Positions 5,586 to 37,005 of a DNA stretch of 55,696 nt are shown in pieces. The DNA comes from Lachnospiraceae bacterium (lineage in GTDB: Bacteria > Bacillota > Clostridia > Lachnospirales > Lachnospiraceae): contig JAFZOS010000086.1 of the NCBI GenBank assembly GCA_017550535.1, forward strand, positions 1 to 55,696, read 5' to 3'. The notes beneath the pieces were generated by a model. It saw only the letters and a list, made by a program, of their open reading frames with translations, was not told where the DNA came from and did no database searches. The position numbers were made by a program, and so were the translations under genes. The stretch's first letter is position 1. The number at the start of each line of letters is the position of its first letter.

Positions 5586-5978
5586 ATGGAAAAGGTAGCT
5601 GAATTCTTAAAGGAAGCAGGAACATATTATCTTGCCACGGTTGATGGCGATCAGCCAAGGGTAAGGCCGTTCGGAACGGTCAATATTTTTGAGGGTAAGC
5701 TGTATATCCAGACGGGAAAGGTAAAAGACGTATCAAAACAGATACATAAAAACCCGAAGGTTGAACTGTGTGCTTTTAAGGACGGCGACTGGTTAAGGGT
5801 TGCCGGAACGCTTGTCGAGGATGACAGGGTAGAGGCAAGGCAGTCGATGCTTGATGCTTATCCTTCGCTTCAGGCAATGTATAAAGCGGATGACGGCAAT
5901 ACGGAAGTTTTTTACATTAAGGATGCCACCGCGACCTTCAGTTCATTTACGAAAGCGCCGGAAACGGTAAAATTCTGA
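5586..5978 (+). CDS. Pyridoxamine 5'-phosphate oxidase-like FMN split-barrel protein
   Basis: This 130-residue single-domain protein has the split-barrel flavin-reductase/PNPOx-like pattern: YYLATVDGDQPRVRPFG near the N-terminus, then the KLYIQTGKVKDVSKQI strand-helix and a VELCAFKDGDWLRVAGT strand. Small family members bind FMN, F420 or haem and act as general reductases; the substrate cannot be read from sequence. The start is set by GGAGGTGA 7 bases upstream. It lies between two unrecognised genes in the same direction (gaps of 24 and 18 bases) and so probably belongs to a three-gene unit. Confidence 0.82.
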   Translation: MEKVAEFLKEAGTYYLATVDGDQPRVRPFGTVNIFEGKLYIQTGKVKDVSKQIHKNPKVELCAFKDGDWLRVAGTLVEDDRVEARQSMLDAYPSLQAMYKADDGNTEVFYIKDATATFSSFTKAPETVKF

Positions 5979-5996
5979 TCGGAGCTTAATCTTTTT

Positions 5997-7502
5997 ATGA
6001 AAAGCATTTTTGAACGGATTGATGAGGTTGTTAAGGAGAACGGCTGTGTTCCGGCAGGTTATGTGCTTGAGGAAGCATTAAAGCCGGGTGAGATCCCCTG
6101 TGTGCATATGGGCGAGCAGGAAGGATTATTAAGGCATCCCGGGAAGCCGGCAGGCAGGGATGAGCTTAAAAAGGCGGTCGGTATCATAAAGGAAAGCTTA
6201 AAGATAAATGCCCGTCTCGCAGTGCATTCTTTTGACGATAATAACCTGGGATTCCGCGTGGCGGATATAAGGGGGCAGCTCCTTAAGAACATAGTTGACA
6301 ACATAAAGGATTACGATCCGCATAAGCTTTCCACACTGGCCTATTCGCTCGTTATCTTCGGCAAAAAGCTTGAGACCGTAAAGCTCGGTCTGCTGCTCCT
6401 TGTATTGTTTAATTTTGCCGATGACGAAGTGGTAAAGAAGCACCTTATTACTCTCGGCCTGTATGAGGAATTCACGAGTTACGTCATCTCTAACGTATCC
6501 GGCTGGCCGGAGGAAACGAGGGATCACGTTTACTATGTATATGCACAGAAATTAAACGGCTGGGGCAAGATAAATGCCATGGACCGTATCGAGCCCATCA
6601 ATGATGAGGTTAAGGAATGGATCCTATGTAACGGATGCAGCAATGATATAAACTTCGGCTACCTGGGAAGGATCGCATACGATAAGAGCGGCGTTGAGGA
6701 AAGGCTTATAAAGGGGAACCTTACAAGTGAGGAGATGCAGGGCGCAAGGGATATAATGCGCGGTCTTTTGATAGGGGGAGAATCAGGCGACCTTAAGGGA
6801 CTTGATAATCCCGCAAGGTTTGCAAGGGCTTATCTTAACGAGCAGGTCTCGCACACCGTAAGGCTTGAAGATATCTCGAACATGTATGAACTCCGTACCT
6901 TCCTGCGTGACTGGGATAAGCAGGGAGTAAACGATGATGCGGAGGCGGCGCTTAAGCTCATCGAAAGGATATTAAGCTTATCGGATGCCGAGGAAATGAT
7001 CCGCGAAGGACTTCTTTACGACCCGGATATCGCCGTATGTGCGGCAAGGGACGGAAGCATAGATATTTCGGGTGAGCTTTTAAAGCTCATGAAGGGTGAT
7101 ATTGAAAAGTACTGCAGATACTCACCGTACTTCCTTGCGGATGACCGCTATGTTAAGGAATTCCTTGATATCTGCGAGCACAAATTAAACGGATATGATT
7201 TTGATGTGGTACCTACCGACCAGGAAACGGCAGACGTAAAGACCTGGCGTCTTGATAAGGTGCTTAAATATCTTGGGAAATATCCCGGAATGGGCAGCAA
7301 GATCGTAGTCGCGGCCATGGGTTCCGTCATTCCGAATTACAGGTTTGGGGCGGCAAAGGTCATAAGGGAATGGGAGGAACTTCAGGGGAAGAACATAAAA
7401 AAGATAAGCCTCGAAGTATCCCATACGATCAAAAAAGTAAGGAAAAAGGAAACCGACGAAGCGCTTAAAAAGGAATGGGACGCGCTGGCTGATTATAAAT
7501 GA
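5997..7502 (+). CDS. Unrecognised 501-residue helical protein
   Basis: I cannot assign this to a family. It is soluble and Lys/Glu/Leu-rich, with no signal peptide and no long hydrophobic segment apart from KLGLLLLVLFNF (about residues 130-141). The helical, leucine-spaced texture suggests an all-alpha, possibly HEAT-like fold. An early stretch (VPAGYVLEEALKPGEIPCVHMGEQEG) and a Lys-rich tail (TIKKVRKKETDEALKKEW) are the most distinctive parts. The upstream GGAG is 12 bases from the ATG, longer than optimal. It sits between the FMN-barrel gene and a DJ-1-like gene in the same direction. Confidence 0.75.
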   Translation: MKSIFERIDEVVKENGCVPAGYVLEEALKPGEIPCVHMGEQEGLLRHPGKPAGRDELKKAVGIIKESLKINARLAVHSFDDNNLGFRVADIRGQLLKNIVDNIKDYDPHKLSTLAYSLVIFGKKLETVKLGLLLLVLFNFADDEVVKKHLITLGLYEEFTSYVISNVSGWPEETRDHVYYVYAQKLNGWGKINAMDRIEPINDEVKEWILCNGCSNDINFGYLGRIAYDKSGVEERLIKGNLTSEEMQGARDIMRGLLIGGESGDLKGLDNPARFARAYLNEQVSHTVRLEDISNMYELRTFLRDWDKQGVNDDAEAALKLIERILSLSDAEEMIREGLLYDPDIAVCAARDGSIDISGELLKLMKGDIEKYCRYSPYFLADDRYVKEFLDICEHKLNGYDFDVVPTDQETADVKTWRLDKVLKYLGKYPGMGSKIVVAAMGSVIPNYRFGAAKVIREWEELQGKNIKKISLEVSHTIKKVRKKETDEALKKEWDALADYK

Positions 7503-7530
7503 TTCTTAATTATTGACAGGAGACCACGGG

Positions 7531-8082
7531 ATGAAAGAAAGTTACGTTTTTTTGGCGGAAGGTTTTGAGGAGATTGAGGCACTTACGGTCGTTGACATTT
7601 TAAGGCGTGTCAACATAGCCGTTAAAACGGTTTCGATATCGGGTGAGTATAAGGTAAACGGTGCGCACGGCATAACAGTCACTGCCGACAAGCTCATAAG
7701 CAATGTCAGGTTAAACGATGCCGCACTTTTAGTGCTCCCGGGAGGAATGCCGGGGACGCTTAATTTAAAGGAGTGCGAGCCGCTTATGGATATGGTAAAG
7801 CAGTTTGCTCAGACGAACCGCCGTATCGCAGCCATCTGTGCGGCGCCTACGATACTCGGAGGACTCGGTCTTTTGGAGGGTAAGAAGGCGTGCTGCTATC
7901 CCGGGATGGAAGGCCAGCTTACCGGTGCAAAGGTATTAAAGGACGAAGTCGTGACCGACGGAAACATAACCACATCAAGGGGCTTGGGGACCGCGATCCC
8001 GTTTGCGCTTGAACTGGTGAGGATATTTGATTCTGCGACCGAGGCGGGAGCCCTGAAGAATAAGATAGTGTACGGACACTGA
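7531..8082 (+). CDS. DJ-1/PfpI family protein (ThiJ/YajL-like)
   Basis: This 183-residue protein is the usual size for DJ-1/ThiJ proteins. The N-terminal FLAEGFEEIEALTVVDILRR supplies the conserved Glu near the active site, and AICAAPTILG (about residue 103) is the nucleophile elbow with the catalytic or redox-sensitive Cys. Relatives include deglycase or chaperone proteins (YajL) and older thiazole-biosynthesis annotations; exact activity is uncertain. The ATG at 7531 is preferred to an upstream TTG at 7513 because AGGAGA lies 7 bases before it. An intrinsic terminator follows. Confidence 0.88.
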   Translation: MKESYVFLAEGFEEIEALTVVDILRRVNIAVKTVSISGEYKVNGAHGITVTADKLISNVRLNDAALLVLPGGMPGTLNLKECEPLMDMVKQFAQTNRRIAAICAAPTILGGLGLLEGKKACCYPGMEGQLTGAKVLKDEVVTDGNITTSRGLGTAIPFALELVRIFDSATEAGALKNKIVYGH

Positions 8083-8100
8083 TGAGCATACGGATATTAA

Positions 8101-8128
8101 GGCAGGCACATAAAGTGCCTGTCTTTTT
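8101..8128 (+). terminator. Intrinsic terminator after the DJ-1-like gene
   Basis: The stem GGCAGGCAC/GTGCCTGTC has a short ATAAA-type loop and is followed by TTTTT. It closes the unit that began at 5223 and isolates the tig leader downstream. Confidence 0.85.
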
Positions 8129-8192
8129 GTGTAAAGCATATTGTAAGAATCACCCTGAACGGCAAATAATACTGGTATTTGGGCAATACATG

Positions 8193-21127: not shown

Positions 21128-21205
21128 TAACAAGACATGGGGACGGTTCTTCCGTCTGGTATTGCTCGCAAAACCGGACGGAAGAACCGTCCCCGTGTCT
21201 TGTTA
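21128..21205. repeat. Long palindromic repeat, copy 2, with partial arm duplication
   Basis: The arms 21128-21160 and 21173-21205 are 33 bp long with only two differences, both G-T wobbles. The spacer (ATTGCTCGCAAA) is itself partly self-complementary. Just upstream, 21112-21126 repeats the first 15 bases of the left arm (AACAAGACATGGGGA), starting on the prfA stop codon. The right arm ends inside the TAA of the convergent EAL gene. The core is the same as copies at 4291, 43192 and 51433. Confidence 0.93.
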
Positions 21206-22894
21206 CAAGCTCACATCATATATAAATTTCTCAGAAAGTTTCCTTGTAAATTCCTCACATGCCATGGGCTTGTCAAACAGATAGCCCTGTATCGTGGTGC
21301 AGTCCATTTCTTTAAGGATGCGGGCCTGTTCCTCATCCTCGCAGCCTTCGGCGATCACTTCCATGCCAAGGCCGGTTACCATCGTAAGGATCGAACCCAA
21401 TATGATCCTGTCCCTTTTGTCCTTTCCGGCAATATTATCAACAAATGACTTATCGATCTTTATAACGTTTACATGCAGGTCCTTAAGGAGGCTTAAGGAT
21501 GAATAGCCCGTCCCGAAATCATCGATCGAAGTGAAGATCCCATGTGTTTTAAGTTCGTCTATGAACTGTCCGAGCATAACGTAGTCCTCGCCGCTCGCGC
21601 TTTCGGTAAGCTCGATCTCTATAAGTGTGGGACTTATGCCGTGACTGGTTATAACGGCCATTATATCGTCGACAAGGTTCGGATTGCGCAGGTGATGCTT
21701 GCTGAAATTGACGGATACCCTTGCGGGAGTTATCCCATCCCGGATCCAACTGACTATATCCGCACATACCCGGTCAAGAACATAAAAGTCAAGTTCGCAG
21801 ATCATGCCTTGAGTTTCAAGTACAGGTATGAATTGCACAGGCGGGATTATCTGCCCGTTCTTATTCCAGCGCACAAGAGCCTCGCAGCCTGATATGGCGC
21901 CCGTGGTAAGGTTGACCTTTGGCTGATAGTATACGATAAATTCCTTACGGCTTAAGGCCTTTTTAAATTCGGATATTATCTCGCGTTCACGGTTTGCCTG
22001 GGCCAATATCTGTTCGGTGAAATATATCCTGTCGGAATCGCCTGAATGCCTTGCATGCTCAAGCGAAATGTTTGCCCTCGTAACTGCCTCGCCCGGATTT
22101 GACATGGTTTCGGGTATGCTGTATATCCCCGAACGCGCCGTAATGGTAAACGTCCTTGTCTGATTGCCGAGCGCTACCGGTATGTTTATCCTTGATATGT
22201 TTTTTAAGTATTTGTCAACGTTTTCATCCTTTAACAGTGCAACGAAATTGTCGCCGCCGAAACGTGCGATGATCTCGCCTGTTGAAAACATATCCTTAAG
22301 CTTATTTGCGTATTCCTTAAGAACGATATCCCCGGCGCGGGATCCCAAAGTCTGGTTTATATAACTGAAATTTTTAAGGTTTGAGAATATGACCGTATAC
22401 TGCCCAAGGATACCCTTAAGTCCCAGATCCCTTGCAAACATTGAAAAGCTTGTGGTATTCGGGAGCATGGTAAGATGATCGGTAAGCTGACGCTTTTTGA
22501 CAAGCTCGGTAAGCCTTGCCTTCGCCATTATTATGAACAGGTTTTTTATAAGATGATCGAGCGCTCCCTTTTCCTCATCGTTCCACTCATATCCCTTCTG
22601 AGGAAATACAGCAAAGCTCACACGGCCTTTATCGAGCGTCTTTATGACCCTCGCATGCGCCATGTAATCAAAGCCGTCTGGTGAAACATACATGACCTTT
22701 GATTTGTTGTATGCCGCTGCTTCGGAAGAACTGGCAGCAAGCTCTATCTGAATTTCAAACTTGCCTATATGCAGTTCGTCCACAACATATTCAAGCGCCC
22801 CGGGTACCAGGTTTAAAATGTCGTCACTTGATACTGTTTCCGCCTGAAGTGCGTTATAAAAATGCCTGTAATTTTCGCTGCACAATGTGCTCAT
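21203..22894 (-). CDS. c-di-GMP phosphodiesterase: degenerate GGDEF plus EAL
   Basis: This 563-residue soluble protein has an N-terminal GAF/PAS-like sensory region (about residues 1-150), a GGDEF domain whose motif reads GGDNF (so probably no cyclase activity), and a C-terminal EAL domain. EAL catalytic features are intact: CEALVRW, SVNFS, ELTES, IDDFGTGYSS, IKIDKS, IAEGCE and IQGYLF. I infer c-di-GMP hydrolysis, with the GGDNF domain perhaps binding GTP as a regulator. The ATG at 22894 follows GGAG; a longer reading to 22969 has no RBS. It is divergent from mtnA, with two palindromes in between. Confidence 0.9.
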   Translation of the reverse strand: MSTLCSENYRHFYNALQAETVSSDDILNLVPGALEYVVDELHIGKFEIQIELAASSSEAAAYNKSKVMYVSPDGFDYMAHARVIKTLDKGRVSFAVFPQKGYEWNDEEKGALDHLIKNLFIIMAKARLTELVKKRQLTDHLTMLPNTTSFSMFARDLGLKGILGQYTVIFSNLKNFSYINQTLGSRAGDIVLKEYANKLKDMFSTGEIIARFGGDNFVALLKDENVDKYLKNISRINIPVALGNQTRTFTITARSGIYSIPETMSNPGEAVTRANISLEHARHSGDSDRIYFTEQILAQANREREIISEFKKALSRKEFIVYYQPKVNLTTGAISGCEALVRWNKNGQIIPPVQFIPVLETQGMICELDFYVLDRVCADIVSWIRDGITPARVSVNFSKHHLRNPNLVDDIMAVITSHGISPTLIEIELTESASGEDYVMLGQFIDELKTHGIFTSIDDFGTGYSSLSLLKDLHVNVIKIDKSFVDNIAGKDKRDRIILGSILTMVTGLGMEVIAEGCEDEEQARILKEMDCTTIQGYLFDKPMACEEFTRKLSEKFIYDVSL

Positions 22895-22926
22895 TTTCTT
22901 GCGCTCCGTGGTACAATTGTGATAAG

Positions 22927-22965
22927 TTGTTCTTGATGAACAAGCGTATGATAATTCTATCATAC
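22927..22965. promoter_or_regulatory. Two adjacent palindromes between the EAL gene and mtnA
   Basis: TTGTTC-TTGAT-GAACAA (about 22927-22943) is followed directly by GTATGATA-ATTC-TATCATAC (22946-22965), a perfect 8-bp inverted repeat with 4-base centre. Lying in a 104-base divergent intergenic region, they look like transcription-factor operators shared by both genes. No regulator gene is adjacent. Confidence 0.5.
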
Positions 22966-22998
22966 ACATATAAAAATAACAATGAGGAGGTCCCCTTT

Positions 22999-24045: not shown

Positions 24046-24079
24046 TGCATAAGGCATATTGAAAAGGGAGGACATGACT

Positions 24080-27000
24080 ATGAAGTTTGAACGGGTGTTT
24101 AAAAGGCTGCTGATGATTCTCATTGCTGCAGCAATGATCCTGCCGGAAACAGGCGCGGTTGTATGGGCTGATGATATCAGTTCCCTACAGGGATCGTATG
24201 TTGAAGCATTTCCGGAAGCGATCGATGATATCGGTGAGGCCGGACCTGTGGCTGATGAAGCGGTACCGGAAATTTCCGGGACAGGGGAAACGGATGACGT
24301 CCTGACAGGGGACGCTGACAGCGAAGATATATCATTCGAGGGTGAAGGCATATCAAATGACAGCGCTTCGCCGACCGTTTACTGTAACACCAAGGCAGAA
24401 GCATATGAGGCTGTCCGCAATATAATAAGAAACCGCGTTAATAAAATGGATTATTATAACGCGAAGATCACAAATCCGGATAAGGTATACAATAATTTTG
24501 TATATGACAGGATATATGTCAGGGAAGATCTGTTTGGGGCAATGTATATCTCAATGACCGATGTCTGCGATTTTGAAGAGGAACGTATGGGAATGAAGCC
24601 GTATGAGGGTGACTATATGTATAACCTTATAGGCGACAGCATAAACCCCAGGTTTTTCTACGAGGATCCGCAGAGTCCCGATGATCCCGATGTGCAGACA
24701 TGGATTGAGAGCGGCGGAGTGTTTTACAAATTATATGAGGTATACCTACCTGTCATAACGACTAAGGAGCAGGAGGACGAACTTGATAAAAAGGTTGAGG
24801 AAATACTTTCTACTCCTGCCTTCCGGAATGTTAAGGACGGCACTAACGACCAGAAGATAAAAGTGATCTTTGATTATGTAAAAGGTACGGTTAAGTCCGC
24901 ATCGGGTGACAGGACCAGGCCCATTGTCCATACCGCTTACAGTGCGCTGTGTACTTCGGGCCACCAGGGAACATGTGAGGCGTATGCACAGGCCTTCTAC
25001 AGGCTGGCAAGGGAGATGGGTGTTCCGGCAAGGGTGCTGATGGGACTGGATGCAAATAACCATACTTATAATCTTGTCAAACGTGATGACGGATACTGGT
25101 GGTTTATAGACTGCTCGAGCGGGACATATCTAAAGTCCTATAAGGAATTTAAACATGCCCAGTTACAGGACAGGTTTAAAACTCCCAAATTCCAATATAA
25201 TTACTGGAATAATGTTAAGGACTATACGGATCGTGTGGATCCCACACGAGTTTTCAGAAACGGAGATGAGATCCTTACTTCAATCGATCTGCAGGAATTA
25301 TATGAATACACCCGAAATGACATGGCTGCCCATCCCGGTGCCGAATATCTTATAAGGCTCGGAAGCGATCAGACAGTTGATGAAACGAACGGTGAGGTTT
25401 TTTATTTTTACGGTGATGAGAGGAAAAAGGTTTCACTTGACCTTAACGGACATACGTTAAACTTAAGGAGCAGTGGAGACATATATCTTAAGGAGATAAA
25501 AAACGGCAGTATTACGATAGGTAAAGCTGAAGTGTTCAGGGGTCATGTATACGGCCAAAGCGGGCAGTGGAGGTTAAATGCCGATCTTATAAATGATTTA
25601 TCGATCACGGGATTATTAAATGGTTTTGACCGCTGTTTTATTTGCGGTAATAACGATACAAAGATAAGTAATGTGAGTGTTAATAAACTGCATTTCTGGG
25701 CAAGGAATAAGCTTATCCTTAACGGTGACCTTATCATTAATAACTGTTCTGCCGCGGATATCGGGGACCATGATATCGTAAAGGGCGCAGACGGATTGTG
25801 CCGCGGAAAGGTTATATATAAGGGTAACAATACCCTGGGACGGGTTGGTGACGGATATGATGAAGAAGACTACGCTGTTGACAGGACATATTCGCCCAAA
25901 CCCATGATCGTCAGGGCGGTCGATGAAAACGGTACCGTAGTTAAGTTTAAGCCAAATGACGTGATAGCGACAAATGAGGGTAAGCTTAAGTATTACAGTA
26001 ACGGTTCCGCGGCTGCGGCAACATTTGATAAAATATATGATTTTGCAAAGATCAATGAAGCAGAAAATGCGGGTCTGCCGGATGATGAAACCATGACTTT
26101 AAAGGTGTTGGGGAAAGACCTTATATTTGCATATCCTGCCGAGGTACAGGTTGTATTTAAGTATAATGCGGCACAGGTGACTCTTCTTGATGATAAGGGC
26201 TTAAACCTTAATCTGATCGCGGGAAAGACAGGTGCCAGACAGGGAAAAGTACTGAAATTCAAAGTTGTACCCAAAACCGGTTATATGTGTACCAGGGTTT
26301 TTGACGGCAGCGTACTTGCCCCTGACACTGACGGCCTTTATTCCGTAAACTGTGACAGAGCAAAGAGCATTGCAATTACCTCGTGCGGCCTTCCGGGTGT
26401 AGCCGTAAGCACGCTGGTTGACGGCAAAGCTCCTTCCGCATCTTCGGCAGTGGTCGCATATGGCGGATTAAAGGGAGGCAAAACCGTAAACTGCGCGGTA
26501 AGGCTTAAGTTCAAACCGGCAGCGGGCAGGGTCATGACAGAGGTTAAATATGATTATGAAGGAATGCCCACAGGATCGGCCGTACTTGCTCCGACTGTCA
26601 TGAATGTATATGATATACCGGTCGATGCGGTTAATGCCGCTACCGCTGCCGGAAAGGATTTAAGTGTAAGTGCATCGACTGTGAAACCGGTTATGTATAT
26701 AAAGAAGGGCGGCAGCGAAGAATATGAAGCTGTTGTAAACAAAGGCGTTGTTAAGCTTAAGTCGGATGATACAGCGGAGCTTGGTGTATTTATGGATTCG
26801 GCAGAAGGTGAGCAATTTGTTATTTCGGATCTTGCATTAAAACCTGCCAATGTTGACAGTGGCTTTGCTACTCTTTCAAATGATAAGAAGAAAATAATCA
26901 TAGATGCATCAAAGGCATCAACCCTGGGTAAGAATGTTTCATTTGTCCTTAAAGGAGATTTCGGAACGCAGGTGGTGACGCTTAATGTTGCGCAAAAGAT

Positions 27001-27730
27001 CGTCAAGCTGAGTGTTAAAGGCTTCAAGTCTGTTAAGAACTCAAATGAAGCAGTGGCTGTTCAGGCGGCAGGAACAACAGTGAAATACGCGATCGCATTG
27101 AACAGGAATGCTGATACTTCGAGGCTGGAACTTGTTTGTGATCCGGCGGGGTGTGCCGAAATAACGCAGGATGCAAAAGGAAATCCGATACTCAAAGTCG
27201 ATACTTTTGTAACGGGTACAGGCGGTACTGTACTTACAACGGATGCTGTCAGGGTCAGGTTTGTTGACAGGAAAGATACATCCATACAATACGGAAACGA
27301 TCATATGATCAATATTCTGGAGCCCGGAAAGGTACGGATGCCGGTTCCTGCAGTCAAGCCGGAAAATCCGACTGATATTGATATGGTTCTTAAATTTACG
27401 CTTCCAAAAGCTGCGTGGAGTTACGGTAATCTGTATTACCGGGTTGAAGCCGAAGCGGTAGGAGGGACTGTTCCCAATGATATGAAAGAGTCAGTGACTG
27501 AGTTTGTGCCGGTTGATACAACATCATACCGTCTTGTCTTTATGAAGGATCCAAGTGCTGTACCCGGCACGGGTCATGCACAGAAATACGATTTAAAGGT
27601 AAGCATTGTACAGATAAAGGATAGCAGCCTTCCTGTTGGCTATGGCCCCGGCGAGCGCTATGGCGAGGATAACCTTTATATAAGCGGCGCTGCAAGGGTA
27701 CTTAAGAATCAGGGGACCAAGGCCCCTTAA
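24080..27730 (+). CDS. Large secreted protein with transglutaminase-like domain
   Basis: This protein of about 1216 residues has a signal peptide (FKRLLMILIAAAMILPETG, likely cleavage after VVWA). An acidic spacer is followed by a transglutaminase/protease-like domain (about residues 210-350) with a Cys-His-Asp triad in GTCEAYAQ, NHTYNLV and WWFIDCSSG. A beta-strand-rich region (SLDLNGHTLNLRS onward) resembles a beta-helix, and the C-terminal half is a series of Ig-like or bacterial-repeat beta domains. No LPXTG or S-layer motif was seen at the C-terminus. The GGGAGG site is 8 bases from ATG 24080. It probably cleaves or cross-links cell-surface or environmental protein. Confidence 0.85.
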   Translation: MKFERVFKRLLMILIAAAMILPETGAVVWADDISSLQGSYVEAFPEAIDDIGEAGPVADEAVPEISGTGETDDVLTGDADSEDISFEGEGISNDSASPTVYCNTKAEAYEAVRNIIRNRVNKMDYYNAKITNPDKVYNNFVYDRIYVREDLFGAMYISMTDVCDFEEERMGMKPYEGDYMYNLIGDSINPRFFYEDPQSPDDPDVQTWIESGGVFYKLYEVYLPVITTKEQEDELDKKVEEILSTPAFRNVKDGTNDQKIKVIFDYVKGTVKSASGDRTRPIVHTAYSALCTSGHQGTCEAYAQAFYRLAREMGVPARVLMGLDANNHTYNLVKRDDGYWWFIDCSSGTYLKSYKEFKHAQLQDRFKTPKFQYNYWNNVKDYTDRVDPTRVFRNGDEILTSIDLQELYEYTRNDMAAHPGAEYLIRLGSDQTVDETNGEVFYFYGDERKKVSLDLNGHTLNLRSSGDIYLKEIKNGSITIGKAEVFRGHVYGQSGQWRLNADLINDLSITGLLNGFDRCFICGNNDTKISNVSVNKLHFWARNKLILNGDLIINNCSAADIGDHDIVKGADGLCRGKVIYKGNNTLGRVGDGYDEEDYAVDRTYSPKPMIVRAVDENGTVVKFKPNDVIATNEGKLKYYSNGSAAAATFDKIYDFAKINEAENAGLPDDETMTLKVLGKDLIFAYPAEVQVVFKYNAAQVTLLDDKGLNLNLIAGKTGARQGKVLKFKVVPKTGYMCTRVFDGSVLAPDTDGLYSVNCDRAKSIAITSCGLPGVAVSTLVDGKAPSASSAVVAYGGLKGGKTVNCAVRLKFKPAAGRVMTEVKYDYEGMPTGSAVLAPTVMNVYDIPVDAVNAATAAGKDLSVSASTVKPVMYIKKGGSEEYEAVVNKGVVKLKSDDTAELGVFMDSAEGEQFVISDLALKPANVDSGFATLSNDKKKIIIDASKASTLGKNVSFVLKGDFGTQVVTLNVAQKIVKLSVKGFKSVKNSNEAVAVQAAGTTVKYAIALNRNADTSRLELVCDPAGCAEITQDAKGNPILKVDTFVTGTGGTVLTTDAVRVRFVDRKDTSIQYGNDHMINILEPGKVRMPVPAVKPENPTDIDMVLKFTLPKAAWSYGNLYYRVEAEAVGGTVPNDMKESVTEFVPVDTTSYRLVFMKDPSAVPGTGHAQKYDLKVSIVQIKDSSLPVGYGPGERYGEDNLYISGAARVLKNQGTKAP

Positions 27731-27737
27731 CTGTATA

Positions 27738-28802
27738 TCATGTGGTAAGAGTAAGATCGCCGTCGTGTATCCAGCCTATTTTCCGCAGAAGCTGCCCGAA
27801 GCACCATGTAAGCACTGCGGGAAGTATAAAGCAGATAAGGATGAGCCCCAGCCAATCCATGGCTGTGATCCCTGCTTTGGTACCGGCGGCGATATCGTTT
27901 ACCCATCCGGTATAAACGCCTATCTGACCTACCAGGCCGCAGGTTCCCATACCTGATGAGATCGCTTCGCCGTTCATCTGCATCTTGAATATGCAGGTGG
28001 CGATCGGACCTGTTATGGCAGAGGTTAAGATCGGCGGTATCCATATCCGTGGATTTTTTACGATATTTCCCATCTGGAGCATACTCGTTCCGATGCCCTG
28101 GGATATAAGTCCCGACACCCTGTTTTCCTTAAAGCTCATAAAAGCAAATCCGATCATCTGCGCACAGCATCCCGCTACCGCAGCTCCTCCCGCGAGTCCC
28201 GTAAGTGACAGCGCGGCACATATCGCAGCTGAACTTATGGGAAGTGTAAGCGCTATGCCGACGATGACGGATACTAAGATTCCCATCATGAACGGATGAA
28301 GCTCCGTAGCCCACATTATAAGCTTGCCGACAGAGCTTGCCGCCGTTCCTATGGCGGGAGCCAAAAGGACGGAGAGTGCTACACCCAGCCCGATCGTTAC
28401 AAGCGGAGTCACCAGTATGTCAACCTTGGTCTCCTTGCTGACCATCTTGCCGAGCTCGGTGGCAACTATCGCGATCACCAGTACGGCAAGCGGTCCGCCC
28501 GCGCCGCCCAGAGTATTGGCTGCGCTTCCTACCGCAAGCATTGAAAACAGTACGAGATTCGGAGCCTTTAATGCATAGGCGATCGCAACTGCCATCGCAG
28601 GTCCCGCAACCCCCTTTGCATATCCGCCGATATCTGTAAGCACCTGTACGTTAAGCTGTGTTCCCAGCGTGGAAAGTATGGTTCCTATAAGAAGCGATGC
28701 GAACAGGCCGCTCGCCATTGCTCCCATGGCGTCTATGAAATATCTTTTCCATGAAATGACGATGTCCTTCCGTTTAAGGAAGGCTTTAAATCCTTTTTCC
28801 AT
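27738..28802 (-). CDS. PTS EIIC-family permease (PTS_EIIC_2 type), no EIIA/EIIB domains
   Basis: This 354-residue integral membrane protein is Gly/Ala-rich with about ten hydrophobic segments and belongs, as far as I can judge, to the PTS_EIIC_2 group of stand-alone IIC proteins (YFIDAMGAMASGLFASLLIGTIL and GGAGGPLAVLVIAIVATELGKMVSKETKVDILVTP features). The transported substrate of this group is unknown. Its RBS (AGGAG) directly follows the stop of the EIIC-EAL fusion, with a gap of 13 bases, so both are one operon. No EIIA, EIIB or HPr kinase gene is near. It ends 7 bases from the convergent transglutaminase gene. Confidence 0.82.
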   Translation of the reverse strand: MEKGFKAFLKRKDIVISWKRYFIDAMGAMASGLFASLLIGTILSTLGTQLNVQVLTDIGGYAKGVAGPAMAVAIAYALKAPNLVLFSMLAVGSAANTLGGAGGPLAVLVIAIVATELGKMVSKETKVDILVTPLVTIGLGVALSVLLAPAIGTAASSVGKLIMWATELHPFMMGILVSVIVGIALTLPISSAAICAALSLTGLAGGAAVAGCCAQMIGFAFMSFKENRVSGLISQGIGTSMLQMGNIVKNPRIWIPPILTSAITGPIATCIFKMQMNGEAISSGMGTCGLVGQIGVYTGWVNDIAAGTKAGITAMDWLGLILICFILPAVLTWCFGQLLRKIGWIHDGDLTLTT

Positions 28803-28815
28803 TGTTTTCTCCTGA

Positions 28816-30969
28816 TCATTTTATTTCGGATAATATTTTGTCCCCGACTGGTTCGTCGTGCTTTTCTTCCATTAGCTGTTTGAACTTTTGAAGAGGGATG
28901 GCCGGGCTGTACAGGTATCCCTGATAGATCATGCAGCCTGCATTCTGAAGTGCCTTGCGCTGTTCCTCGGTTTCAACATATTCGGCTATGGTTTCGATAT
29001 TGAGCCCTTCCGTAAGACGTGATATCGAGTATATGATCTCGCGGCTTCGGGCATTGAACACGTCGCGGCTTATCCCGCCGTCAAGCTTGACGATATCGAA
29101 GATATTTGACTGCAGGTATTTGATAGAAGTATTTCCCATTGAAAAATCATCGATACCGAAGGTATAACCGAGTTCTTTTATCCTTGAAAGCCTTGATATG
29201 AAATTATCATCAACCCTCAGGGTCGCCTGCTCGGTTATCTCGATAAGCACATTCCTGCATTTGCCCGGATAAATGATATGAAGGTTTTTAAGGAACTCCT
29301 CGAATTCATCGGTCTGTATTGTAAGTCCCGTCACGTTTATCGAAATATGGAAGCTGTCATCTTCCTTGTATTTTAACAGTTCCTCAAGCGTCTTAAACAC
29401 AGTCAGGAATACCTTTTCCTCAAGCTCGACGAGCTTGCCCTGTTCCTCGGCCAGTGCGATGATCAGAGGAGGATATATCCATCCGTACTGATCGTGGTGC
29501 CACCGAAGCAGTGCCTCGGCGCCGATGAGCTTATGATCCGAATTGTACTGCGGCTGGTAATATATGATAAAGTCGCCGTTATCTATATATTCACGGAGCT
29601 CCGCGGAAAGTGTCCTGGCAGTCCTGCCGGGATCGCCGGGAAGGCTTAAGAATTCAACGGGCTCGCGATTCTTCTCGCACTCCTTTAGGATATTTTCGAG
29701 CATGGTCACCTTTTCATGCGCATTTTGGTACTTGATATGATCGTTTATCCTGACAAACGGCATGTAAATGAGGACTCCTATAGCGATGCATATTATCTGG
29801 AGCAGGGAACCCTTTGCCGAACCCGTGGCAAGATATCCGCCGAGTATAACGGGCGTTGTCCAGTTTATCGCTTTTGATGCCGCCGGCACAAAACCCGATG
29901 CCATTGCTGAATAACATATGATGATATTTACGATCGGTGCAAGCAGGAAGGGTATTATATAAATGGGATTGAACACGACCGGAAGTCCGAGTACCACAAG
30001 TTCGTTTATATTAAATATCATGGGTACCGAAGCAGCCTTTGCAAGAAAACGGTCGTTTTTCTGCCTGCTGAAGATGATGATCGCAAGCACGAGCGACCAG
30101 GTGGAGCCGCAGCCTCCCAGAAGTACGAACACATCTATGAAAACTCCTGACAGTATGGGATTAAGTCCCTTTGCTCCGCCCTGACTTAAGACGATATCAA
30201 ACAGCCTGTATTTTACTTCGCCGAGAGCATCCGATCCGTGTATGCCGAGTACCCACATAAGGTCCTGTACGATCTCGAAGTATATCATGTTGCCGAGGCT
30301 GTTAAGTGAACGTGAGAACATCTTGGTAAAGCCTGCGTTTACGAGAGAATATAGATCCTCATACCCGATAACGTTTATCGTTATGTTGATTATTGCAAAT
30401 ATCTCAAGCACGAGCAGCATGGGGAAAAGGGAGATGAGTATGGTGGTAAAGTCCATGCTTATCCCGTCCACATACCGCCGGCTGTTGAACACAACCAGAT
30501 CCAGCAGTTTTATAAAGATAAATGAAGATAACAGGCCGCAGGCGATAGCGCACAGCACGTTCTTGGGCCCTAAGAGATCAAGGTTTTCCGGGTGATTGAA
30601 GATGCCCGACAGGATCAAAAATGAAGCGATCGAAGTGATGATCACCAGAAGGCGGTGTGAGAGCTTGCCGATACGGGAATTGATGCTGTCGGCGATCGTT
30701 ATTGCCATATATAGGGAAAGCATGCCGTATGATGCAAATTCAAGGTATTTAAGCATCGTGAACAGCATACCGTCATATGCGCCGTGTATAAGGTCCTGAT
30801 ATGCGTTTATGGGCAGGTTTATGAACACCTGTACAAGGGCGCTTACCAAAAATACGGGCAGCAGTGATTCGAGGCTGTCTGTGATGATCTTAAAAAGCGA
30901 GAATTCGGAAACTTTCCTGAATGCCCGTATTATTTTTTTCCATACATCGGACTTGGCAAGCCAGCTCAT
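28816..30969 (-). CDS. PTS EIIC (lactose/cellobiose type) fused to an EAL c-di-GMP phosphodiesterase
   Basis: In this 717-residue fusion, residues about 1-410 are a membrane EIIC domain of the lactose/cellobiose/chitobiose family with the sugar-site signatures GIHGSD (His244) and FNINELVVLGLP (Glu323). Both correspond to residues that contact sugar in ChbC-type permeases. After a linker (about 411-450) comes a complete EAL domain with Glu485 (AEALLRW), Asn545, Glu577 (IEITE), Asp607-Asp608 (IDDF), Lys628, Glu663 and Gln683 (YQGYLYS). These match catalytic EAL residues, so hydrolysis of c-di-GMP is likely. The arrangement suggests a membrane sugar sensor that controls c-di-GMP. It is the first gene of an operon with the EIIC protein at 27738. 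Confidence 0.9.
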   Translation of the reverse strand: MSWLAKSDVWKKIIRAFRKVSEFSLFKIITDSLESLLPVFLVSALVQVFINLPINAYQDLIHGAYDGMLFTMLKYLEFASYGMLSLYMAITIADSINSRIGKLSHRLLVIITSIASFLILSGIFNHPENLDLLGPKNVLCAIACGLLSSFIFIKLLDLVVFNSRRYVDGISMDFTTILISLFPMLLVLEIFAIINITINVIGYEDLYSLVNAGFTKMFSRSLNSLGNMIYFEIVQDLMWVLGIHGSDALGEVKYRLFDIVLSQGGAKGLNPILSGVFIDVFVLLGGCGSTWSLVLAIIIFSRQKNDRFLAKAASVPMIFNINELVVLGLPVVFNPIYIIPFLLAPIVNIIICYSAMASGFVPAASKAINWTTPVILGGYLATGSAKGSLLQIICIAIGVLIYMPFVRINDHIKYQNAHEKVTMLENILKECEKNREPVEFLSLPGDPGRTARTLSAELREYIDNGDFIIYYQPQYNSDHKLIGAEALLRWHHDQYGWIYPPLIIALAEEQGKLVELEEKVFLTVFKTLEELLKYKEDDSFHISINVTGLTIQTDEFEEFLKNLHIIYPGKCRNVLIEITEQATLRVDDNFISRLSRIKELGYTFGIDDFSMGNTSIKYLQSNIFDIVKLDGGISRDVFNARSREIIYSISRLTEGLNIETIAEYVETEEQRKALQNAGCMIYQGYLYSPAIPLQKFKQLMEEKHDEPVGDKILSEIK

Positions 30970-31325: not shown

Positions 31326-31553
31326 ATGATGAATGAGTGCAGGATAAGGTTGGATCTTGATAATGCCGGCGAGTTCGTTAGGAAGGCCTCGAAGTGTGAT
31401 TTTGATATTGATATCTCATATAATCATTTTATAATCGATGCCAAATCGATGCTCGGCGTGCTGGGGCTTGACTTTTCAAAGATCCTTACCGTAAAGTACG
31501 GCGGACAGGATAATGAGTTTGACGGTATGATCAAACGCCTGGCCGTAGGCTGA
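31326..31553 (+). CDS. HPr-like protein without the phosphorylatable His (Crh-like)
   Basis: This 75-residue protein matches HPr over most of its length: EFVRKASKCDFDIDISYN aligns with the HPr helix 1 and strand region, and AKSMLGVLGL aligns with the regulatory Ser46 helix. By ungapped alignment to Bacillus HPr, the catalytic His15 position is Asp10 and the following ARP is lost, whereas the Ser46 equivalent (Ser41) is kept. This resembles Crh, an HPr paralogue that regulates carbon catabolite control but cannot transfer PTS phosphate. It is monocistronic, with its own promoter and terminator, and divergent from the EIIC-EAL operon. Two ATGs (31326, 31329) are possible starts. Confidence 0.8.
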   Translation: MMNECRIRLDLDNAGEFVRKASKCDFDIDISYNHFIIDAKSMLGVLGLDFSKILTVKYGGQDNEFDGMIKRLAVG

Positions 31554-35241: not shown

Positions 35242-37005
35242 ATGGAGAATCGGACGGATAACGCAAAAAACACTGAAGTTAAAAAGGCAGTTGCAAAGAA
35301 AAATGATGTTAAGAAGAAAGAAGTAAAAAAGAACACCGAAAAAGTCTCTTTCATTAATTCCATATGTTTTAAGATCATGATGCTGGTGATAGCATCACTG
35401 GTGATAGCGGTGGTTGTTGTCATGCTGCTTACGATCACCAGGTTTAAGAAAGCCATGGTAACGCAGATGAACACACAGCTTCTGTACATGGCCGAAACCG
35501 AGAAAAATGTCATCGACGTTGAAACCGGCGGCGTTGTGCAGATGATCTCCAACTACGCCGATATCCTTGATACGGTAAGGATCGACGGTTATTCGACGAA
35601 TAACATCATGCTGGTTACCGAGGAAGGTTTTGTAAAATACAGTCAGAACGGTTATCTGGCAGGTGAGGATATAACTATCCAGGAATTCTTTGACATGCAC
35701 GCCAAGGGTGACAGCGGTCTGTTTGAGTATAAGCTCCCGAACGGTGAGGACAGGCTTGCCGCATATTCCATCATCAAGGTTAACTGGCTCCTTGTATGTG
35801 ACGTATCAAGGGCTGAGGTAATGAGCAAGGCAAATGCCATAAGGAATCAGGCGATCCTGGTTGCGGTGGTAGTACTCATCGTTTGTGCGATACTGGCATA
35901 CATATTAAGCGCGATGATCGTAAAACCCATAAAGATGCTGACCGAGGTTATCGTAAGGACATCGGAGTTTAATTTCAAGAAGAGCAAAAGGGCCGATCAG
36001 CTTTGCAAGCGTCATGATGAGACGGGAGGAATGGCAAGGGCGGTTGTACTTATGAGGAGCAACCTTGCCAATATGGTGGGCAACATCGAAAACGCGAGCA
36101 CGAAGATAGACGGCAACGTAAACCAGCTGCAGAGTGTTACGAATGTCGTTAACAATATGTGTACCGATAACTCGGCCACAACACAGGAACTTGCCGCAGG
36201 AATGGAAGAAACGGCAGCAACGACCGAAAGCATCTACGCAAATATCGGTTATATGCAGAACGGTGCAAAGGATATAACGAACTTATCCGAAAACGGCGAT
36301 GCACTGAGCGTCGAGGTTATGGAGCGCGCCAATGCCCTTCGTGATAAAACAATGGATGCGACCCGCAGGACCAATGAAACATATAATTCCGTTAAGATAC
36401 GTTCGGCAAATGCCATTGAGGGCAGCAAGGCCGTAAGCAAGATAAACGAGCTTACCGAAGCTATCATGTCCATTTCATCACAGACAAGCCTGCTTGCGCT
36501 TAATGCAAGTATCGAGGCAGCCCGTGCCGGTGAAGCGGGACGCGGATTTGCGGTTGTTGCAACTGAGATCGGACATCTTGCCGAGCAGACCAGCAAATCG
36601 GTTACCGATATCAACGGTATAGTGGGTGAAGTTAACGCAGCGGTTGCCAACATGACCTCATGTCTTGAGGAGACCACGGCCTTCCTTGAGGATACGGTAC
36701 TTAACGATTATAGGGAATTTGCCGAAGTCAGCGAACAGTACAGTGCCGATGCCATCGAATTCAAACGCAGCATGAATGACGTACACGAGTCGATCATCAA
36801 CCTGGCCGATTCGATATCAAAGATCTCCGATGCAATGTCGCGGATCACGTCAACAGTCGGAGAATCAACACTCGGTGTTACGGATATCGCGGATAAGACG
36901 ACCGACATGGTATCAAGGACATCAAGGACCAACGATCTTGTTGAGGAAAGCCTGCAGTGCGTTGAACAGCTTAAATCGATAGTCGGTGAATTTATCATTG
37001 AATAG
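35242..37005 (+). CDS. Methyl-accepting chemotaxis protein with Cache-like sensor
   Basis: This 587-residue chemoreceptor has an N-terminal Lys-rich cytoplasmic tail (about residues 1-35), TM1 (about 45-68) and a small extracellular Cache-like ligand domain (about 70-195, including [30 protein letters not shown]). TM2 (about 211-235), a HAMP-like linker and the signalling hairpin follow; the tip reads [25 protein letters not shown] (about 412-436). It would report an extracellular small molecule to CheA. The unusually basic N-terminus, with repeated KK(N/E)VK motifs, is notable. No che genes are nearby. Confidence 0.93.

Follow-up and report, generated by a model that had tools for sequence, protein, structure and literature searches.

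A permease-type domain and an EAL domain in one chain

The window, by which we mean the whole 55,696-nucleotide stretch of DNA analysed here, is contig C5 of a 2.74-Mb assembly that is 98.1% complete. On its reverse strand lies a gene that joins a sugar permease domain (PTS_EIIC) to an EAL phosphodiesterase domain. This gene, its parts and its closest neighbours are as follows:

28816..30969 (-): EIIC-EAL fusion gene; open frame of 717 aa plus stop, Pfam PTS_EIIC and EAL
29728..30927 (-): EIIC half, residues 15-414; phmmer against the PDB, ChbC 3qnq, E 2.5e-35
30436..30486 (-): residues 162-178, presumed TM4-TM5 loop; between hydrophobic peaks 141-155 and 176-197 by hydropathy
30238..30240 (-): His244 codon (GIHG), by alignment to 3qnq; H in 60/64 fusion rows
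30001..30003 (-): Glu323 codon (FNINE), by alignment to 3qnq; E in 61/64 fusion rows
29590..29757 (-): linker, from F405 (where the last hydrophobic stretch ends) to residue 460 within EAL, by the F405-460 spacing
28903..29601 (-): EAL phosphodiesterase half, residues 457-689; PF00563, E 1.1e-47
27738..28802 (-): PTS_EIIC_2 (PF13303) gene, starting 14 bp downstream of the fusion on the same strand
31326..31553 (+): HPr-like ORF of 75 aa, divergent, upstream of the fusion

The fusion frame runs uninterrupted from its ATG, and both Pfam domains lie above their curated cut-offs: PTS_EIIC (PF02378) at residues 35-345 (E 3.7e-22, 79.2 bits against 30.7) and EAL (PF00563; 162.9 bits against 31.3). 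The one-chain arrangement claimed in the preliminary description was therefore confirmed. A sequencing error or assembly artefact that joined two genes is ruled out by the intact frame and by the occurrence of the same fusion in all rows of two alignments: (i) A1, with 31 fusion rows from 30 genomes of the source family that are 25-41% identical to the window protein, and (ii) A2, in which the window protein is joined by 37 rows from 36 named loci (38 rows in all, 26-44% identical; L086 and L117 are partial). The window protein is a row in both. No known RNA elements were found in the window at gathering thresholds.

The closest solved relative of the EIIC half is ChbC (3qnq). TIGR00410 (lactose/cellobiose IIC) matches residues 24-417 (E 4.7e-53) with a score of 180.7 bits, which falls short of the cut-off of 236; the EIIC-EAL proteins of G430 and G486 do pass it. 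H244 aligns with the histidine of GIHG in 3qnq and E323 with the glutamate of FNINE, two residues that we take to be sugar contacts in ChbC. His244 is retained in 28/31 rows of A1 and 37/38 of A2, Glu323 in 29/31 and 37/38, and the two together in 28/31 and 37/38; the initial assignment to the lactose/cellobiose type, with both sugar-site residues in place, was correct. Their retention would also suit an alternative that we consider unlikely on the evidence below, namely that the fusion is a working or facilitated-diffusion transporter, served by EIIB in trans where EIIB is present, and that the EAL half reports on transport or is merely anchored by the permease.

The EAL half keeps its metal and catalytic positions and has an unusual loop 6

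Residues 449-702 have the EAL domain 8arv as their closest solved relative (E 1.2e-33). Nine residues that we take to be the metal/catalytic positions (E485, N545, E577, E580, D607, D608, K628, E663 and Q683) are all present, as had been claimed for those that could be aligned, and are invariant in 31/31 rows of A1 and 38/38 of A2. EALs of the LapD/FimX type, which are non-catalytic, lack such invariance. This difference, which holds over phyla, counts against an inside-out arrangement in which the EAL half would have no phosphodiesterase activity and would serve as a c-di-GMP-binding effector that gates EIIC, an arrangement that we rate as quite improbable.

What speaks for an effector is loop 6. 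The canonical EAL loop 6 is DDFG(T/A)GYSS, and 11 of the 13 other EALs of this genome whose loop was read have DDFG[TS]GYS[SN]; the fusion has the non-canonical DDFSMGNTS. EAL phosphodiesterases such as MucR and DosP share the EAL domain and the catalytic residues with the fusion, which differs from them in its permease-fold input and in having this loop rather than DDFGTGYSS. Throughout the fusion clade and across phyla, the loop keeps its two aspartates, G612 and S615 without exception and is altered at the flanking positions (S/G, M, mostly H); M611 is found in 31/31 rows of A1 and 37/38 of A2. According to the accessible part of one report, the DDFGTG loop holds two metal-binding aspartates, moves with dimerisation and matters for EAL activity (PMC5301497). 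We read the altered loop as a probable clade-specific version and not as decay, because decay would be expected to hit the metal ligands also. Judged by its residues, the EAL half is predicted to be active, and loop 6 calls for caution in that prediction.

The fusion is widespread and patchily distributed

A search with the EIIC half matched 58 of 250 genomes of the source family; in 32 of them the matching frame is of fusion size (at least 693 aa). Counted among the 32 are G104, whose EIIC continues into a kinase, and G143, which has a stop inside the gene. A profile built from 13 EIICs of the fusion clade (A3) matched 86 of 397 family genomes at 1e-20. Forty-five matches were better than 1e-114, and their frames measure 693-762 aa except in G104 (1018 aa) and G681 (a 489-aa frame with EIIC only, ended by the contig edge). 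The EAL half was read in 30 of the 43 fusion-size frames (29 in A1 plus L254), forms a separate piece in G143 and went unread in 12. The next match stands at 1.7e-93; below this gap are mostly standalone EIICs in frames of 420-475 aa, together with the EIIC-EAL proteins of G047, G249, G710 and G665.

At the scale of the phylum, 61 of 398 genomes matched. Besides the two fusions of the window's own genome, fusion-size frames occur in G774, G806, G803, G430 and G486, the last three of which were checked with Pfam. Scores overlap at this scale, with a standalone EIIC (G557, 9.8e-113) ranking above a fusion (G486, 3.7e-111), a point against the sensor reading given below. In a scan of named genomes, the best 80 loci of a longer list comprise 36 that match well past EAL (L086-L121) and others that match mainly through EAL (L122-L165). 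Among these best 80, the 36 of fusion type include Treponema porcinum, Sporomusa ovata, a Selenomonadaceae bacterium, a Synergistales bacterium, Desulfovibrio sp., Desulfobulbus sp., Azoarcus sp., Duganella radicis, Thiorhodococcus drewsii and Nisaea nitritireducens. Domain and homologue searches thus place the same architecture in many genomes, including Treponema, Sporomusa and Proteobacteria. Its presence is patchy, since G193, a sampled genome of the same genus, is without the fusion.

Several loci depart from the single-copy, single-frame arrangement. In Duganella radicis, a gap of about 3.4 kb separates a pair of EIIC-EAL fusions on one strand (L121:154-2295 and 5674-8160, +). EIIC and EAL lie on separate adjacent frames at L077:6069-8192 (+) and at L269:4167-6244 (+), the latter in G796; these are either real split genes or broken copies. 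At L253:399-2189 (-), one open frame places a family 1 glycosyl hydrolase behind the later part of an EIIC.

Both halves have probably been inherited together across a near-fixed linker

In quick maximum-likelihood trees, the 64 distinct fusion EIICs fall on one side of a branch with 50 standalone EIICs on the other (SH-aLRT 100), and the 64 fusion EALs are likewise separated from 36 other EALs, a set that includes 12 of the window's own genome (SH-aLRT 99). The searches were short and used a simple model, with a few long branches (L084 and L085) and hand-chosen outgroups. Pairwise distances in the EIIC and EAL halves are correlated (Spearman 0.51 over 2016 pairs). Because each half lies on one branch side and the distances of the two are correlated, a single old fusion whose halves were inherited jointly is likely. 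The spacing between the halves is nearly constant: F405 and position 460 are 55 residues apart in 30/31 rows of A1 and 32/38 of A2, and 52-56 residues apart otherwise.

Fusion EIICs have lost a loop motif of standalone EIICs

Standalone EIICs carry the motif P..VP..V...F at positions that correspond to residues 162-178, and the window fusion does not. In the 63 of 64 fusion rows that reach the loop (L117 stops short of it), P..VP was found in 0/63, compared with 47/50 standalone EIICs, and F178 in 4/63, compared with 50/50. The use of P..VP and F178 to tell the two groups apart arose in this analysis and corresponds to no published criterion. Of 44 columns that are at least 85% conserved in the 50 standalone EIICs, 8 are lost (less than 25% kept) in the fusions, and they comprise 5/5 of the columns within residues 160-180 and 3/39 of those elsewhere (Fisher p 5e-5). 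The segment had first been spotted on 20 family EIICs. With the 30 further EIICs from the phylum taken as a separate set, lost columns made up 7/7 in the segment and 8/50 elsewhere (p 2e-5). Since the fusions form a single clade, the loss counts as one evolutionary change and not as 64.

A structure of a Vibrio cholerae EIIC, as described in the accessible part of its report, has the TM4-TM5 loop touching the transport domain of the neighbouring protomer (PMC12900739). The loop that the fusions have lost may formerly have served EIIB. Its loss weighs against a working transporter. On the other side, three standalone EIICs without the exact P..VP (L205/L266, L207/L265 and L215/L267) sit in real PTS operons with an EIIB gene, so loss of the motif is no proof that use of EIIB was lost.

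Neither of two EIIB families was found in many fusion-bearing genomes

EIIC normally requires EIIB for sugar transport. The genome that holds the window has two PF02378 EIICs, both of them fusions. Of the 21 matches to the window fusion in a protein search of this genome, one is that fusion, one is a second full-length fusion at C22:146365-148410 (35% identical) and 19 lie in the EAL part only. No PF02302 EIIB and no PF00367 EIIB was found in it (0 each). It encodes one EI N-domain (PF05524) and has four HPr (PF00381) matches, consisting of one with GLHLRPA (L018), one with GLEARP (L019) and two short HPr-like ORFs. The possibility that this genome is without any PTS was rejected, as EI and the GLHLRPA HPr are encoded.

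PF02302 is absent from 13 of the 32 family genomes with fusion-size frames, the window's own included, and from 22 of 35 genomes of named loci (taken from the best 80 loci listed, without L090); the two sets share at least three genomes, some of the genomes are incomplete, and those of the named loci carry no completeness figures. We tested 34 genomes without PF02302 for PF00367 and found 26 (the window's own and 25 others) to be without this family also. Among genomes with a completeness of 90% or more and a contamination of 5% or less, 9/24 of the family set are without PF02302, and 5/9 of those tested are also without PF00367. A PF02302 match is present in 19/32 family genomes and in 13/35 named-locus genomes (12 over the cut-off); many such matches lie in frames of 600-700 aa and are probably of the fructose type. 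All four of the standalone EIICs near the fusion clade but outside the family that were checked (L265-L268) adjoin a PF02302 EIIB gene.

These counts bear on the transporter alternative in both directions. The 26 genomes with neither EIIB family, the window's own among them, argue against it, whereas the EI and HPr genes and the presence of some PF02302 EIIB in 19 of the 32 family genomes argue for it. EI and an HPr with its histidine in the same genome count against a sensor as well, as do the PF02302 matches in 19/32 family and 13/35 named-locus genomes.

In the usual PTS chain, phosphate is carried by EIIA and EIIB and not by EIIC, which argues against another explanation, that the EIIC half is a receiver of phosphorylation state. 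The loss of the loop motif and the failure to find EIIB in the window's own genome point the same way, and we hold this explanation to be very improbable. It would be in line with the EI and HPr genes and with the wording of a 2022 review, in whose accessible part PTS_EIIC is one of the rare domains combined with GGDEF, EAL or HD_5 and is termed a phosphoreceiver (PMC8846402).

The fusion gene has signalling genes more often than sugar genes beside it

No EIIB or EIIA is fused to the gene or adjacent to it, as first described; Pfam searches of the window and the neighbouring genes bore this out. The PTS_EIIC_2 gene directly downstream is probably co-transcribed with the fusion. Being permease-like, it favours a transporter and counts against a sensor. 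With no EIIB recognised in the genome, this gene is an orphan, and we rejected it as a conserved partner because no relative of it lies near the fusion at 32 other loci (L054-L085). The divergent HPr-like ORF matches the profile from position 16 onwards, beyond the region of the phospho-histidine, and KSMLGVLGL (the Ser46-like part) is retained. This ORF was rejected as a conserved partner too: over L054-L121 and L018-L021, the only matches are L020 (the ORF itself) and L021 (on C22 of the same genome).

No conserved sugar operon was found over 33 neighbourhoods, some of which are ended by contig edges. The neighbour families found at more than two loci are a cluster of chemotaxis receptors (4) and a large c-di-GMP/kinase cluster that includes the fusion itself. 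At the 33 loci, 31 genes lie on the same strand within 120 bp of the fusion (one is the EIIC piece of the broken L077), and 27 were scanned. Signalling genes make up ten of them (two hybrid kinases, three with GGDEF, two with GGDEF-EAL, and one each of HD_5, MCP and RelA/SpoT). Four are linked to sugar, namely a 4-alpha-glucanotransferase (GH77), an enolase, an MFS_2 sugar carrier and PTS_EIIC_2; the remaining 13 are unrelated or without a match over the cut-off. None of the 27 is an EIIA or EIIB, which, with the low share of sugar-linked genes, is at odds with a transporter.

The same EIIC clade also occurs in a kinase

At L075:6989-10006 (-), an EIIC of the fusion clade is followed by HisKA, HATPase_c and Response_reg. 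This EIIC has GIQG, NEI and no P..VP, and the tree places it in the same clade. The chain has the make-up of a sugar-permease-like hybrid histidine kinase. That the same EIIC clade is fused to a kinase is a further point against the fusion as a transporter.

The fusion is probably a one-chain sugar sensor

Taken together, these results make it probable that the fusion is a membrane sugar sensor in one chain that controls c-di-GMP breakdown. We prefer a sensor to a permease because of (i) the absence of two EIIB families from many fusion-bearing genomes, (ii) the loss of the loop motif with the sugar site kept, (iii) the near-fixed linker, (iv) the kinase fusion and (v) the signalling neighbours. 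These points were added here to the earlier proposal of a permease turned into a sensor, which is partly supported and is the best-supported model; the departure from transport is what they strengthen, and the control of the enzyme by occupancy stays a prediction. Beta-glucosides as the ligand would be a guess from the parent family.

How such a sensor could work may be outlined from what the sequences show, namely that the fusion is intact, that key residues are conserved, that the loop motif is lost, that the linker varies little in length, that two EIIB families are absent and that the halves are inherited jointly; ChbC-like dimerisation, ligand binding and helical coupling enter the outline as assumptions. 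The EIIC half would retain the fold and sugar pocket of a lactose/cellobiose-type permease and would stand outside phosphotransfer, given that transporter loop features are lost and no EIIB was recognised. An EIIC dimer would bind sugar at H244/E323, or would cycle between outward and inward states without phosphorylation. The change in EIIC could then travel through the linker of about 55 residues to the EAL pair, where dimer contacts and the metal-binding DDF loop would shift and so alter the rate of c-di-GMP hydrolysis. Published work that links EAL activity to dimerisation and to the DDFGTG loop (PMC5301497) favours such a route.

For the clade as a whole we lean, with less confidence, towards a wider reading. 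A separate EIIC clade may have left the PTS and become a portable sugar-sensing input domain, used through a near-fixed linker by c-di-GMP phosphodiesterases in several phyla and also by at least one hybrid histidine kinase, with loss of P..VP and F178 setting the clade apart from most transporters.

Comparison with known systems

ChbC-type transporters (3qnq, TIGR00410, PF02378) share with the fusion the sequence family, the sugar-site His and Glu, GG.G, W370, P330 and N334. The fusion differs from them in falling below the TIGR00410 cut-off, in having no EIIB that was found and in its C-terminal EAL; the P..VP loop, P324 and P369 are lost in most fusions. Transporter and putative receptor versions of one fold can here be set against each other. 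UhpC, Snf3/Rgt2 and CbrA are transporter-like receptors that also use a permease fold as a sensor, with other folds and other outputs. As a probable case of a permease fold reused as a receptor, the fusion combines a clear candidate ligand site (H244, E323) with an enzyme output, and its sequence signature allows more such proteins to be found.

Few c-di-GMP enzymes, to our knowledge, have a known sugar input. The window's own genome by itself has 21 EAL matches, most of them without a known signal. In the system described in the accessible part of PMC10333796, sugar or PTS status acts on a c-di-GMP phosphodiesterase through a separate EIIA that binds the enzyme, whereas the permease-like part here is in the same chain.

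The domain pairing itself is already tabulated, and is called rare, among the PTS_EIIC architectures with GGDEF, EAL or HD_5 in the accessible part of PMC8846402. Our reading differs from the phosphoreceiver of that text in being one of ligand sensing, drawn from the missing EIIB families, the lost loop motif, the near-fixed linker and the fusion to a kinase. We found no experimental work on an EIIC-EAL fusion in the openly licensed literature. What seems to be new is the separate EIIC clade with lost transporter features, together with its kinase version.

Other genes in the window

Convergent with the pair formed by the fusion gene and the PTS_EIIC_2 gene is a gene at 24059-27730 (+); its product of 1223 aa has a core that resembles transglutaminase and an N-terminus that resembles a signal sequence. 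The window also encodes a GGDEF-EAL protein at 21203-22969 (-) and a chemotaxis receptor at 35242-37005 (+).
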